Of a DNA stretch of 64,000 nt, positions 25,718-53,132 are shown in pieces; position 1 is the stretch's first letter; every line of letters begins with the position of its first letter. Below the pieces are notes generated by a model that did not search any database, was not told the DNA's origin, and saw only the letters and a program-made list of their open reading frames with translations. Source of the stretch: Achromobacter pestifer (GTDB lineage: Bacteria; Pseudomonadota; Gammaproteobacteria; Burkholderiales; Burkholderiaceae_B); assembly GCF_013267355.1 (NCBI RefSeq), contig NZ_CP053985.1, positions 2,914,001 through 2,978,000 of the forward strand. Reading direction: 5' to 3'. The position numbers were made by a program, and so were the translations under genes.

Positions 25718-26143
25718 ATGTCTATCGAAAAAGTGCTGTACCGCGCCCATGCGCACGTCACCGGCGGCCGTGAAGGCACGGGCGCCACGGACGACGGCAA
25801 CCTGAACGTCAAGCTGACCACGCCGAAGGAACTGGGCGGCGCGGGCGCGGCCGGCACCAATCCGGAACAGCTGTTCGCCGTGGGCTATTCGGCGTGCTTC
25901 ATGGGCGCCATGAAATTCGTCGCCGGCCGCGACAAGATCGCGATGCCGTCGAATGCGACGATCGATGGCGCTGTTGGGATCGGGGGTATTCCTACGGGGT
26001 TTGGGATTGAAGTCGAGTTGAAGATTTCGTTGCCGGGGATGGAGCGGGCCGAGGCCGAGAAGCTGGTCGCTGCGGCGCATATCGTTTGCCCTTATTCGAA
26101 TGCTACCCGGGGCAATATTGATGTGACGTTGACGATTGTTTGA
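25718..26143 (+). CDS. ohr: Organic hydroperoxide resistance protein Ohr
   Basis: A 141-residue cytosolic thiol peroxidase of the OsmC/Ohr family that reduces organic hydroperoxides with lipoylated proteins as reductant. Catalytic cysteines are Cys60 (GYSACFMGA) and Cys124 ([13 protein letters not shown]), the usual Ohr positions. AAGGA lies 8 nt before the ATG. Codons change visibly from about 25970 on: C-ending codons become scarce and GGG, GTT, TTG and ATT common, toward the structured element that begins 51 nt downstream. Confidence 0.96.
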
Positions 26144-26194
26144 TCGTTGATGGGTTGTTGATGTTCTATTGGCGGGTGGCCTTGTTCGTAGGCC

Positions 26195-26358
26195 GCCTGT
26201 CGTCGCGTGCGGCGTGGCGGCTCGCGCCCACGATTGCGGTCCGGAGCGTTCGCTCCGGACTGCCCCGTCGTCATCCTCGTCCTCGCCTTCGGCGACTCCT
26301 TCGGATTCCCTCGGGCGCATCGAGGTTGCGAGCCGCCACGCCGCACGCGACGACAGGC
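26195..26358 (+). repeat. 164-nt hairpin unit A, copy 1
   Basis: Perfect 31-bp arms (26195-26225 and 26328-26358) enclose a core with a hairpin TCCGGAGCG-TT-CGCTCCGGA and a smaller stem CGCC-TTC-GGCG. The core strings GATTGCGGTCCGGAGCG, CCCCGTCGTCATC and GATTCCCTCGGGC recur in the other three units. It starts 51 nt after the ohr stop. Confidence 0.85.
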
Positions 26359-26420
26359 TACGTACGTCTTGGGTCGCTGCGCCGTTAGATCCGTGGTCAG
26401 TGTCGAGTCTTGAGCTGCCC

Positions 26421-26454
26421 GTCCTTTACGGCCGCGCGGGCGGCCGTAAAGGAC
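26421..26454 (+). terminator. Hairpin C, copy 1 (terminator-like)
   Basis: A perfect 15-bp stem (26421-26435 with 26440-26454) closes a GCGG tetraloop and is followed by a six-T run at 26463-26468. It lies 62 nt after hairpin A, the same distance as in copy 2. It probably ends the ohr transcript. Confidence 0.65.
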
Positions 26455-26704
26455 ATACGTAATTTTTTAGATTTCGATGGTAGTCGCTGGCGCGAATGCA
26501 GGCAGCTGCTTTCTGATGGCATCACCGTCCTGGGGGTGGGGCGGTGATGGGCGGCGCGCGGTGGGCGGTGGCTTGCGCATGCAGAGTATCTCGCGCGCGC
26601 CGCCCATCCAGCACCGGAGTTGAAGTGCAGATGCAGAGCAGACGTGATGGCACAGTCGCAGCCATTGCGCGCAGCGCCATCACGTGACGCAAGACACCGC
26701 GTAA

Positions 26705-26739
26705 GCCCCAAAAGGCCGCCCGCGCGGCCGGCCTGGGGC
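26705..26739 (-). terminator. Hairpin D, copy 1 (inverted counterpart of C)
   Basis: GCCCCA (26705-26710) pairs with TGGGGC (26734-26739) and GGCCGC (26714-26719) with GCGGCC (26724-26729), separated by a small internal loop. The loop CCGC is the reverse complement of the C loop. In the minus direction it lies 92 nt beyond unit B and may serve the convergent LIV operon. Confidence 0.55.
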
Positions 26740-26831
26740 GGGCCCCGCAAGACACGCCACCACACCCCGATGCGGAAAAAAACGCCAAGCACACAGCTCG
26801 CCCCAGCGCCCGTGAAGATTCAAACAGCACA

Positions 26832-26995
26832 GCCTGCCGCGTCGGGGACGCGCACTGCGCGGGGCGTCGATAAGCCCGAGGGAATCGGAAGGGAAGGCCG
26901 TAGGCCTGGACGACGATGACGACGGGGAAGTCCGGAGCGAAGGCTCCGGACCGCAATCGTTGCCCCGCGCAGCGCGCGTCCCCGACGTGGCAGGC
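26832..26995 (-). repeat. 164-nt hairpin unit B, copy 1
   Basis: The 34-bp arms (26832-26865 and 26962-26995) pair with one G-U and one A-C exception. The reverse complement of the core matches unit A (GATTGCGGTCCGGAGC, CCCCGTCGTCATC, GATTCCCTCGGGC) while the arms have a different sequence. It lies 35 nt beyond the LivF stop, reading on the minus strand. Confidence 0.85.
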
Positions 26996-27030
26996 GTCAA
27001 TAGAAAGAACGCCCGCCGCGCAGCACATCC

Positions 27031-27753
27031 CTAATGCGACCCACCCAAATAAGCCGCAACAACAGCTGGATCATGCTTCAACTTATCCGCGCTCCCATGC
27101 ACGGAAATCCGCCCGTTCTCCAGCACATACCCATAATCCGCCACATTCAACGCCGCCGCAGCAAACTGTTCCACCAGCAGCATCGTCACGCCCTCGTCCT
27201 TGAGCCGCGCAATGATCCGGAAAACTTCTTCCACCAGGATCGGCGCCAGCCCCATCGAAGGCTCGTCCAGCAGCACCAGTTCGGGATTCAGCATCACCGC
27301 GCGCGCCATGGCTAGCATCTGCTGCTCTCCGCCGGACAAAGTGCCGGCCAGCTGATCGCGTCGCTCCTTCAGACGAGGAAACAAATCCATGGCGCGGCCC
27401 AGGTCGGACTGCACGTCGCCCTTCGGCCGACTGCCCGTCAGGCGCGGGAAAGCGCCCAACAGCAGGTTGTCGGTGACCGACAGCGTCGGGAACACGCGCC
27501 GGCCTTCCGGCGAGTGCGCCAGCCCCAGCCGCGCGATGCGGTGGGATTCCAGCCCGTCGATGCGCTTGCCGCTCAGCGTGACCTCGCCCGCGGTGGGGCG
27601 GATCATGCCGGACAGCGCCCGCATCGTGGTGGTCTTGCCGGCGCCGTTGGAGCCGATCAGTGTCACCACCTTGGCCTTCGGCACTTCCATGCTGATGCCG
27701 TGCAGCACTTTCACCTTGCCGTAGCCCGCTTCCAGATTCTTGATCGATAGCAT
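27031..27753 (-). CDS. livF: LivF-type ABC transporter ATPase (second LIV system)
   Basis: A 240-residue ATPase of normal LivF length. The Walker A motif is GSNGAGKTT, the signature LSGGEQQM and Walker B LVLLDEPSMGLAP, with the family C-terminus HDPAVVAAYLGGSH. It is last in the livK-livH-livMG-livF operon. Its last 50 or so codons favour T- and G-ending codons unlike the rest of the gene, as in ohr on the other side of the structured element. Confidence 0.93.
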   Translation of the reverse strand: MLSIKNLEAGYGKVKVLHGISMEVPKAKVVTLIGSNGAGKTTTMRALSGMIRPTAGEVTLSGKRIDGLESHRIARLGLAHSPEGRRVFPTLSVTDNLLLGAFPRLTGSRPKGDVQSDLGRAMDLFPRLKERRDQLAGTLSGGEQQMLAMARAVMLNPELVLLDEPSMGLAPILVEEVFRIIARLKDEGVTMLLVEQFAAAALNVADYGYVLENGRISVHGSADKLKHDPAVVAAYLGGSH

Positions 27754-50011: not shown

Positions 50012-51147
50012 TGAAACGCCTGGGCCTCATTCTGCTACGCGTGTTCACGGCCTTCGATTGGCCGCTGCTGGCGATCCTGTTGATGTTCGCCGCGCTCGGC
50101 ATGACGGTCATGCATTCCGCGGTGGGCGGCACCGACTGGCGCTTTGCCGAACAGTCGCGTAATTTCATCATCGCTTTTTTCGCGATGTGGATCATGGCCT
50201 TGATTCCGCCCAAGTGGCTGATGAAGCTGGCCTTGCCGTTTTACGTGGTGGGGGTGGTGCTGCTGCTGGGCGTGGAGTTCTTCGGCGAAACCAGCAAGGG
50301 CGCGACCCGCTGGCTGAACCTGGGCGTGACCCGCATCCAGCCCTCCGAGATGATGAAGATCGGCGTGCCCATGATGCTGGCCTGGTACTTCCAGCGCCAC
50401 GAGGGCGCGGTCCGCATCCGCGACTTCCTGGCCGCCGCCGCCATGCTGGCCGCGCCCTTCGGCTTGATCGTGCTGCAGCCTGACCTGGGCACGGCGCTGC
50501 TGGTGTTCGGCGCCGGCTTCTTCGTGATCTACTTCGCGGGCCTATCGTTCAAGCTGCTGGTGCCGGTCATGCTGGCTGGCATCATCGGCATCGGCACACT
50601 GGTCTATTACGAAGACCAGCTCTGCGAGCCCGAGGTGGACTGGGTGGTGCTGCATGACTACCAGAAGCACCGGGTGTGCACACTGCTGAATCCCAGTTCC
50701 GATCCCTTGGGCAAGGGCTTCCATACGATCCAGTCGATGATCGCGGTGGGCTCGGGCGGGATGTACGGCAAGGGCTACATGAAGGGCACGCAGACCCACC
50801 TGGACTTCATCCCCGAGCGCACCACCGACTTCATCTTCGCGGTGTATGCCGAGGAGTTCGGGTTGTACGGCGGGATTGCGATCCTGGTGCTGTATGGGCT
50901 GATGATGGCGCGCGGATTGACGATCGCGTCGCGGGCGTCTTCGCAGTTCGGCAGGCTGCTTGTCGGGGCGCTGACGATGATGCTGTTCATCTATGTATTC
51001 GTGAACGTGGGGATGGTGACGGGGATCCTGCCTGTGGTGGGGGTGCCGTTGCCGTTCATGAGCTATGGGGGGACGGCTTTGTTCACCATGGGGATTGCGT
51101 TTGGGATCATGATGAGTATTAGTCGGCATCGGTCGGCTAAGACTTGA
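50011..51147 (+). CDS. rodA: Peptidoglycan glycosyltransferase RodA
   Basis: A 378-residue SEDS-family polymerase with about ten membrane segments. Signatures are GATRWLNLGVTRIQPSEMMKI, LQPDLGTALLVFGAG and the C-terminal PVVGVPLPFMSYGGTALFTMGIAFG. Its ATG shares one base with the mrdA stop (TAATG). In the last 250 nt C-ending codons largely give way to G- and T-ending ones (GGG, GTG, TTG, ATT), as in the other genes that flank the structured elements. Confidence 0.96.
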   Translation: MKRLGLILLRVFTAFDWPLLAILLMFAALGMTVMHSAVGGTDWRFAEQSRNFIIAFFAMWIMALIPPKWLMKLALPFYVVGVVLLLGVEFFGETSKGATRWLNLGVTRIQPSEMMKIGVPMMLAWYFQRHEGAVRIRDFLAAAAMLAAPFGLIVLQPDLGTALLVFGAGFFVIYFAGLSFKLLVPVMLAGIIGIGTLVYYEDQLCEPEVDWVVLHDYQKHRVCTLLNPSSDPLGKGFHTIQSMIAVGSGGMYGKGYMKGTQTHLDFIPERTTDFIFAVYAEEFGLYGGIAILVLYGLMMARGLTIASRASSQFGRLLVGALTMMLFIYVFVNVGMVTGILPVVGVPLPFMSYGGTALFTMGIAFGIMMSISRHRSAKT

Positions 51148-51200
51148 TCTTGACCGTTTGCTGGGCATTCTTGGGGCAGGCTCGGTCTTCTTCGTAGGTC

Positions 51201-51364
51201 GCCCGTCGTCGCGGGCGGCGTGGCGGCTCGCGCCCACGATTGCGGTCCGGAGCGTTCGCTCCGGACTTCCCCGTCGTCATCTTCGTCCAGGCCTACGGCC
51301 TTCCCTTCAGATTCCCTCGGGCGCATCGAGGTTGCGAGCCGCCACGCCGCCCGCGGCGACGGGC
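51201..51364 (+). repeat. 164-nt hairpin unit A, copy 2
   Basis: The 31-bp arms (51201-51231 and 51334-51364) pair fully if one G-U is allowed. Compared with copy 1, two arm positions changed on both sides (T-A to C-G and T-A to G-C), so pairing is preserved. The core TCCGGAGCG-TT-CGCTCCGGA is unchanged, while the small stem is now AGGCC-TAC-GGCCT. Confidence 0.85.
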
Positions 51365-51426
51365 TGCCGCCGTCTTGGCTTGGTGCGCTGCTAGGGCCGT
51401 GGACGGTGGCGAGTCTTTTGCTGCCC

Positions 51427-51460
51427 GTCATTTCCGGCCGCGCGGGCGGCCGGAAATGAC
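51427..51460 (+). terminator. Hairpin C, copy 2 (terminator-like)
   Basis: A perfect 15-bp stem (51427-51441 with 51446-51460) with a GCGG loop, followed by ATACGTGATTTTT. Two stem positions differ from copy 1 and both are compensated (C-G to A-T, A-T to C-G). It probably ends the rodA transcript. Confidence 0.65.
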
Positions 51461-51750
51461 ATACGTGATTTTTGGAATTTTGATGGTGTTCGCTGTCGCG
51501 AATGCGGACAGTCGTTTGCTGATGTCATCGCCGTCTGTGGGTGGGGCGGTGATGGGTGGCGCGCGGCACGCAGCGGTTTGCGCTTGAAGACTTTCTCGCG
51601 CGCGCCCCCCATCCGGCACCGTGGCTTAGCGTCGGCGATGATCAACGGCCTGGTGACATTCAGTCATGAGCAGCGGCCCTCGAGGTGTTAAATGCTGACG
51701 GGTGCCTCACGCGCGCGCAGCGCCATCCTCAACCGCAAGGCACCGCGGAA

Positions 51751-51785
51751 GCCTCGGAAGGCCGCCCGCGCGGCCGGCCCGAGGC
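51751..51785 (-). terminator. Hairpin D, copy 2 (inverted counterpart of C)
   Basis: GCCTCGG (51751-51757) pairs with CCGAGGC (51779-51785) and GGCCGC (51760-51765) with GCGGCC (51770-51775). Against copy 1 the outer stem has two compensated changes. It lies 92 nt beyond unit B in the minus direction. Confidence 0.55.
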
Positions 51786-51877: not shown

Positions 51878-52041
51878 GCCCGTCGCGTCGGTGGCCCGCC
51901 ATGCGCGGGGCGTCGATAAGCCCGAGGGAATCTGAAGGAACCGCCGAAGGCGGTGACGAAGATGACGAAGGGGCAGTCCGGAGCGAACGCTCCGGACCGC
52001 AATCGTTGCCCCGCGCATGGCGGGTCACCGACGCGACGGGC
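51878..52041 (-). repeat. 164-nt hairpin unit B, copy 2
   Basis: The 34-bp arms (51878-51911 and 52008-52041) pair with a single G-U exception. The arm sequence differs from unit B copy 1 at many positions yet remains self-complementary. The inner small stem is ACCGCC-GAA-GGCGGT. It lies 38 nt beyond the stop of the dehydrogenase gene. Confidence 0.85.
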
Positions 52042-52079: not shown

Positions 52080-53132
52080 TCAAGAAGGCAACGCCTCAGG
52101 CACCCCAAGGTCGACGGCCAGCTTGGTCAAACCGTCCCAGATCCGGCTATCAAACGTCAGCGTATCCTCGTTCAGCGCGCGGTTGCGGGCTTCGTACTCG
52201 CCCGGATACTGCACGCCTTCGACGCCCGGTTGCGGCTTGCAGGCGTGCAGGTAGTCGATGAACGCGCCCACCTCCATCGACCGCCAGTCAGTATTGAAGT
52301 CCACCTGCGGATCCAGCAGCAGCGCGAACATATTGTTCGTCGCTACGCCAGTGCGCGGATGTTGCGGCTGGATCGTGCCGCCGCCGGACAGCACGCCGGC
52401 CAGCAGCTCGGCCACCAGGCCCAGCGCGTAGCCCTTGTGGCCGCCGAACGGCAGCAGGGCGCCGGGCGGGTCGGTGAACAGCGCGTTGGGATCGGTGGTC
52501 GGGTTGCCCTGGGCGTCGATCAGCGAGCCCGGGGGGGCTTCCTCGCCCTTGGCGGCCAGCACCCGCGCCTTGTTGACGGCGATCGAGCTGGTGGCCATGT
52601 CCACCAGGAACGGCGGACGGCCGCCGGGCAGCGGGCCGGCGAAGCACAGCGGGTTGGTGGTCAGGCACGCCTGCGCGCCGCCGAAAGGCGCCACGGTCGG
52701 CGAGCGGTTGATCACGTTGGTGAAGGCCAGCAGGATCAGGCCCTTGGCCGCCACCAGTTCCCCGTAGTGGCCCATGCGGCCCAGGTGATGGCTGTGGCGC
52801 AGGGTCAGGATGCACTGGCCGTGCTCCTGGGTGCGCTCGATGGCCTTCTCGATAACGACCTTGCCGACATACTGGCCCAGCCCGTGGTGGCCGTCGTAGG
52901 CCAGCATCGCGCCGCGATCGTTGATCAGTTCGGGCCGGCCGTCGGCCTGGGCCAGGCCCTCGGACAGCACGCGCCGGTAGTTGGTCAGGATGGACAGGCC
53001 ATGGCTGGTGTAGCCCACCCGGTCGGACTCGACCAGGTGCTCGGCCACGTCGCGGGCGATGTCCTCGGGCACGCCCTGGGCCGTCAGCACGCGGCGGCCG
53101 TATTCATTGGCTTGGGCGATCGAAATTTTCAT
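52080..53132 (-). CDS. LDH2/MDG2-family NAD(P)-dependent 2-hydroxyacid dehydrogenase
   Basis: A 350-residue enzyme of the malate/L-lactate/ureidoglycolate dehydrogenase family, which is unrelated to classical Rossmann LDHs. Conserved blocks are HGLSILTNYRRVLSEGL, DGHHGLGQYVGKVVIEKAIE, SHHLGRMGHYGELVAAKGLI and GGHKGYALGLVAELLAGVLSGG. GGAGG precedes the ATG at 53132 by 8 nt. It follows a DASS-type transporter by 12 nt, so the two probably import and oxidise one 2-hydroxy acid. The exact substrate is open. Confidence 0.9.
   Translation of the reverse strand: MKISIAQANEYGRRVLTAQGVPEDIARDVAEHLVESDRVGYTSHGLSILTNYRRVLSEGLAQADGRPELINDRGAMLAYDGHHGLGQYVGKVVIEKAIERTQEHGQCILTLRHSHHLGRMGHYGELVAAKGLILLAFTNVINRSPTVAPFGGAQACLTTNPLCFAGPLPGGRPPFLVDMATSSIAVNKARVLAAKGEEAPPGSLIDAQGNPTTDPNALFTDPPGALLPFGGHKGYALGLVAELLAGVLSGGGTIQPQHPRTGVATNNMFALLLDPQVDFNTDWRSMEVGAFIDYLHACKPQPGVEGVQYPGEYEARNRALNEDTLTFDSRIWDGLTKLAVDLGVPEALPS

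Follow-up and report, generated by a model that had tools for sequence, protein, structure and literature searches.

Two intergenic gaps are considered here within the window, a stretch of 64,000 nucleotides (nt) from Achromobacter pestifer (contig NZ_CP053985.1, positions 2,914,001 to 2,978,000) whose own numbering is used for all coordinates below. The first gap lies between ohr, the gene of an Ohr-family peroxiredoxin, and a gene for a LivF-like branched-chain amino acid ATP-binding cassette (ABC) ATPase, and the second between the RodA gene and a malate/L-lactate-type dehydrogenase gene. Both are filled by copies of a large palindromic element, which is composed of two half-modules of a dispersed repeat family situated behind the 3' ends of genes, and most of the genes that face a unit of this family show a loss of C at silent sites toward it.

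Organization of the Element in the Window

In copy 1, the element opens with unit A (26187..26366, plus strand), in which the arms of a long outer stem at 26187-26234 and 26319-26366 enclose a conserved core with two inner hairpins. This is followed by hairpin C (26421..26454, plus strand), the central hairpin E/F (26546..26608, plus strand), hairpin D (26705..26739, minus strand), and unit B (26832..26995, minus strand). Copy 2 comprises unit A (51193..51372, plus strand), hairpin C (51427..51460, plus strand), a central hairpin E/F read from sequence and similarity (51551..51613, plus strand), hairpin D (51751..51785, minus strand), and unit B (51878..52041, minus strand). Rechecking of the coordinates confirmed the place and the order A-C-(E,F)-D-B that the initial annotation had given for both gaps. 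Its description of unit B as the inverted counterpart of unit A also stands, with 107 nt at 83% complementarity in copy 1 and 104 nt at 86% in copy 2, as does the listing of hairpin D as the counterpart of hairpin C. The stated conservation of the spacing holds as well: hairpin D and unit B are 92 nt apart in each copy, and the distance from the 164-nt core of unit A to hairpin C is 61 nt in one copy and 62 nt in the other.

Repeat Family and Modular Composition

When copy 1 was searched against the two contigs (7.18 Mb) of the A. pestifer genome, at least 83 matching pieces were returned; with 40 of 91 candidates scored, the copy numbers given here are minimum values. A dispersed repeat family was thereby resolved, with 36 units in 24 stretches and 25 element gaps, so that the two copies, initially regarded as a pair of paralogues, belong to a set of at least 36 units. 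The units are 164-180 nt long and fall into two types, A and B, which share a core of about 95 nt and differ in their outer stems; A units begin with CGTAGG and B units mostly with CTTAAG. Along the contig carrying them (G000:C2), element places among the scored candidates are unevenly distributed, 24 of 25 lying within the initial 4.24 Mb of a total of 7.09 Mb and the remaining one at 5.8 Mb.

Unit A and hairpin C constitute half-module I, which is accompanied by the central part, and unit B and hairpin D constitute half-module II. The combination of I with II is present in both window copies, while I with I occurs at L076 and II with II at L073; half-modules also stand alone (I at L062 and L081, II at L064 and L077, for example), and L069 is a mosaic in which unit A lies beside a D-type hairpin. 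The large palindrome arises where two half-modules share one gap, and the building blocks, found alone, doubled or mixed, replace the single fixed A-C-(E,F)-D-B palindrome initially described. Decay of units was also observed: the hairpin apex is missing at L305, both units have disappeared at L214, and A is fused with B at the inner hairpins at L225, as is expected for unstable long palindromes.

Folding and Covariation

In copy 1, unit A folds at -132.7 kcal/mol (z -13.8) and unit B at -123.9 kcal/mol (z -11.1), with none of 200 shuffled sequences equalling either value. Hairpins C and D are G+C-rich and each adjoins a unit; a conserved U-tract directly adjacent to the structure is absent behind the units and behind hairpins C and D alike. 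Among 36 aligned cores, changes on both sides were found in 25 of 51 pairs, the proportion of pairing cells was 96.2%, against 80.2% in shuffled and 31-40% in slid alignments, and the covariation score was 0.354 versus 0.075, with clean covariation at two inner pairs (columns 65-114 and 71-107). Covariation was not taken to prove a function as RNA, given that nearly all exchanges are of the Watson-Crick kind and could also result if one arm were copied from the other. A coding role was likewise discarded, since single-base insertions and deletions between some units, judged by eye and with no protein search run, break the open frames.

Placement Behind Gene Ends and Range Across Genomes

The 25 element gaps of the A. 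pestifer genome comprise 16 convergent, 9 tandem and no divergent gaps, as compared with 8 convergent, 45 tandem and 9 divergent among the 62 remaining gaps of the window (Fisher p 4e-6). A unit faces the 3' end of a gene in the sense of that gene in 30 of 36 cases, one of them at 590 nt, and most units lie 20-100 nt beyond the stop codon. The same orientation holds for 55 of 63 units in eight genomes of two other genera, one further unit having no near gene, and, by a coarser count, for 72 of 102 units in five Achromobacter-type genomes, in which 7 units lack a near gene and 1 was set aside. With convergent gaps enriched, divergent gaps empty, and a non-random position relative to gene ends, the interpretation as a 3' module offered by the initial annotation is supported, and its interpretation as a whole is upheld in part, the fixed single palindrome having been given up.

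The initial annotation had also proposed a search beyond this genome, and the family proved to be genus-wide and to reach other genera, including Bordetella. Matches were obtained in all 37 searched genomes of the genus, the source genome included, although genome G002 gave one weak match and none with the covariance model. In one further genus, 7 of 9 genomes match, with up to 32 matches, and the core pattern matched 17 stretches in named genomes, all of Achromobacter or Bordetella. The covariance model found the family in 16 of 151 genomes of the bacterial family (6 of 43 genera) and, in a sample of 200 genomes from across the order, in 2 that belong to the genus of the source genome; none of 24 genomes from other families of the order matched. 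Both filled and empty sites exist, and the element has been gained and lost between species; a precise duplication of the target site, as would mark a miniature inverted-repeat transposable element (MITE) with its terminal inverted repeats and matching transposase, was not seen, the ends not having been compared with an insertion-sequence catalogue.

In genome G105, inverted pairs of units lie 2.5-3.5 kb apart, an arrangement resembling a transposon with units as its ends. This origin was rejected, since the intervening gene encodes an IS256-family transposase, and it is likelier that an insertion sequence landed inside the repeat. Such IS256-family insertion sequences occupy the repeat spacer in five stretches of that genome (L114-L118, e.g. 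L115:3474-4724), and in L114 an intact copy interrupts another of the same kind, which is left as two fragments.

Compositional Imprint on Gene Ends

On the gene strand, G/C skew and T/A skew both increase toward the element. In 72 unit-facing genes, the fraction of C at fourfold-degenerate sites is about 0.44 at more than 1000 nt from the unit and falls to 0.35 at 300-399 nt, 0.25 at 200-299 nt, 0.14 at 100-199 nt and 0.09 at 0-99 nt; the lost C is replaced mainly by G and, near the gene end, also by T. All four genes flanking the window copies carry this imprint, as seen from the fourfold C in their last 300 nt relative to the rest of the gene: ohr (25844..26143, plus strand; 0.33 against 0.54), the LivF-like ABC ATPase gene (27031..27330, minus strand; 0.12 against 0.42), rodA (50848..51147, plus strand; 0.11 against 0.47), and the malate/L-lactate-type dehydrogenase gene (52080..52379, minus strand; 0.30 against 0.54). 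Of 70 unit-facing genes, 65 are positively skewed over their final 50 fourfold sites. No comparable rise was present in 33 convergent genes without an element or in 107 other genes, and the skew of 176 control genes in the last 300 nt was -0.06. The imprint also occurs in other genera, in weaker form.

Several comparisons tie the skew to the unit and to the strand. At five orthologous gene ends, skew follows the presence of the unit (p 8e-5 to 0.011). In 8 of 10 convergent gaps holding a single unit, the owner, the gene whose end that unit faces, has a skew of 0.37 to 0.73, and little or none is seen in the gene opposite (-0.49 to 0.14); the other two gaps, L067 and L080, are reversed. Additionally, eight genes that start close to a unit are near the baseline, with a skew on the unit-sense strand of 0.17 near the unit and 0.11 further in, against about 0.10 in controls. 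The sparing of genes starting beside units and of most opposing genes disfavours an origin of the skew in strand breakage and resection. Among the fixed changes at one locus, 20 of 21 are C to G. Changes of this class are rare among spontaneous mutations and are not known as a usual mutation bias, and for this reason selection is favoured as the source of the imprint. The depletion of C at silent sites over roughly the final hundred codons, seen in most genes that run into a unit, hints at a strand-selective device at the gene end.

The same observations bear on a neutral explanation, in which gene ends tolerate a selfish or neutral palindromic repeat behind them, and local strand-asymmetric mutation, or a burst of changes at the time of insertion, produces the skew incidentally. 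Such a mutational process should reach the genes that start beside a unit, yet the eight genes of this kind are spared, and the C-to-G direction is not known as a usual mutation bias. Nor does the genome supply a transposase of the kind associated with repetitive extragenic palindromic (REP) sequences, and no repeated target site was seen. Plasmid and phage collections gave zero matches, and an identity as a plasmid or phage element was rejected. The selfish or neutral explanation is considered unlikely.

Another explanation places the skew in the sense-strand transcript, with polymerase slowing at the hairpin, the G-rich RNA re-hybridizing, and the resulting hybrid aiding termination of the gene's own transcript, so that the skew would either be selected or result from the coding strand being exposed. 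The terminal G/C skew of human genes has been linked to R-loops and termination. It is consistent with such an R-loop terminator that the skewed strand is the one displaced in an R-loop, that the skew fades over a few hundred nt and requires a gene running into the unit, and that it also appears in tandem gaps without an opposing gene (0.76 at L065 and 0.64 at L081). Deamination of an exposed strand, however, predicts C to T in the first place, whereas the fixed changes are C to G, and it predicts an excess of G.T over A.C mispairs in the stems, the opposite of what is found (see below). The R-loop terminator is considered rather doubtful.

It was also considered whether each gene end bears a single device, either the element or an intrinsic terminator, an idea that the counts neither support nor exclude. 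Intrinsic terminators were detected in 4 of 61 owners; the corresponding figures are 2 of 20 for opposing genes, 9 of 52 for convergent genes lacking an element, and 5 of 63 for tandem genes. Where a terminator precedes the unit, the owners (6 genes) were not clearly less skewed (p 0.12).

Mispairs and the Working Strand

The distribution of mispairs in the outer stems provides an indication of which strand is folded as RNA. Read on the gene strand, the outer stems of 112 units contain 50 A.C and 4 G.T mispairs, the excess of A.C recurring in each of the five genomes in which mispairs occur, and 29 A.C against 4 G.T when counted by distinct column, type and genome. A.C mispairs on the gene strand correspond to G.U pairs in the opposite RNA, and the opposite, antisense RNA is tentatively preferred as the working strand. 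Three observations weigh against this assignment: a gene-strand G.U is conserved in P2 in 104 of 111 cases, the longer stems of the A. pestifer genome give 36 versus 28 mispairs, and other genera give 15 versus 14. In hairpins C and D, the 5 A.C and 2 G.T mispairs in 25 distinct sequences are too few to serve as strand evidence.

These data also concern the possibility of a protective 3' structure, in which the unit would shield the end of the mRNA from 3' exonucleases and the C-poor RNA upstream would leave the G-rich first arm free to pair with the second. The extreme stability of the units, their short distance from stop codons, the restriction of the imprint to genes reading into the unit, and the conserved gene-strand G.U of P2 are all in agreement with this function. 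Folding of the gene-strand RNA should nevertheless purge A.C and tolerate G.U, and the outer stem shows the reverse; a protective role is considered improbable.

A Proposed Strand-Selective Gate at the 3' End

The element consists of two 3'-end half-modules from a dispersed non-coding repeat family, each belonging to one of the two converging genes. A reading that we regard as quite possible, short of probable, is that it works as a strand-selective gate linked to Rho. The unit, the linkers and the imprinted gene end would act together in such a gate. In its favour are the placement behind gene ends, the restriction of the imprint to genes read toward a unit, the association of skew with the unit at orthologous gene ends, the C-to-G changes, the antisense composition, and the excess of A.C mispairs. 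Coding-strand RNA at the gene end, being poor in C, would offer bad loading for Rho and would then run into a very stable structure. The opposite RNA, arising by read-through from the opposing gene and antisense to this one, is C-rich and G-poor around the structured unit, and Rho would stop it before it enters deeply into the gene. Once a unit had been gained, the synonymous sites of the gene end would be selected toward a C-poor, G- and T-rich composition.

The naming of Rho as the agent is a guess based on composition. Over the 200 nt outside 112 units, the antisense RNA has a C content of 0.40 and a G content of 0.185, and in composition it possesses the C-rich, G-poor trait of Rho loading. 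In Bacillus subtilis, Rho is described as sparing one strand and ending C-rich antisense RNA (PMC13323073).

A broader proposal is put forward tentatively: a mobile or exchangeable 3' module and the coding sequence abutting it may constitute one device, in which selection after gain of the module rewrites synonymous sites, mainly from C to G, over roughly the final hundred codons, with the effect that the termination machinery would distinguish the two strands of the gene end. In at least three genera, a repeat next to these genes would then determine part of their codon usage.

If the imprint is due to selection, each genome offers dozens of natural experiments at loci that one species has filled and its sister species has left empty, and in which one event alters the synonymous-site rules of a single gene end. 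They would allow direct tests of how termination shapes coding sequence in high-GC bacteria and of what insulates converging genes where classical terminators are absent. If the imprint is due to mutation, it reveals an unusual local strand-asymmetric process. In either case, codon usage near these elements is not readable as the outcome of translational selection alone.

Comparison with Known Systems

Neither the anatomy of the element nor an element-linked skew of gene ends was found described in the open-licence literature, within a partial coverage in which the Bor-2 family discussed below was not comparable. The initial annotation had considered that the element might prove to be a catalogued one; no Rfam family matches the window at the gathering score (eight matches below threshold fall in the element, the best at 36.9 bits versus 168), and the Y1 transposase domain PF01797 has no match in the A. 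pestifer genome, as against matches in 5 of 14 control genomes, with the ends not compared with an insertion-sequence catalogue. Since Y1 transposases, or REP-associated tyrosine transposases (RAYT), were not found, an origin from the REP/RAYT system was rejected for this genome.

REPs are described as sequences of 20-40 bp tied to these transposases (PMC3733652). The likeness to REPs and bacterial interspersed mosaic elements (BIME), GTAG-tagged REPs included, lies in dispersed palindromes downstream of genes, in convergent and unidirectional gaps and often as inverted pairs (PMC3733652); type A units, moreover, begin with CGTAG, as in GTAG-tagged REPs. Unlike REPs, which as described there are 20-40 nt long with a GTAG or CGTC tag, the present units are 164-180 nt long with a three-way core, and B units begin with CTTAAG.

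Repeats are also described from the related genus Bordetella, for which 26-30 bp Bor repeats are reported (PMC1590033). Bor-2 of Bordetella bronchiseptica is an intergenic family predicted to be structured, with a model of 167 nt and 17 (6) members, and half-module pairing, convergent placement and a gene-end imprint are not mentioned in the part of PMC2267715 available. Bor-2 may be a relative, set beside the element by description and not by sequence.

Intrinsic terminators of the bidirectional type occupy the same gap between ohr and the LIV genes in species without the element (L232, L223). Unlike intrinsic terminators, the units are far larger and multibranched, and hairpins C and D have no conserved U-tract directly behind the stem. 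At other places where this gap lacks the element (L219, L231, L234), it is filled by a different repeat built on GTGTCTGACACC, and genome G006 contains another G+C-rich repeat, of the GGAGCCGGC...TTGAGGGGG type, behind genes (L221, L268).

With regard to the gene-end imprint, the strand composition shaped by Rho in other bacteria (PMC13323073) is similar in that the gene strand avoids Rho and the antisense strand attracts it by means of synonymous sites. The bias reported there is genome-wide and concerns purines, whereas the one observed here is local, lies beside a repeat, and is directed toward G and T.
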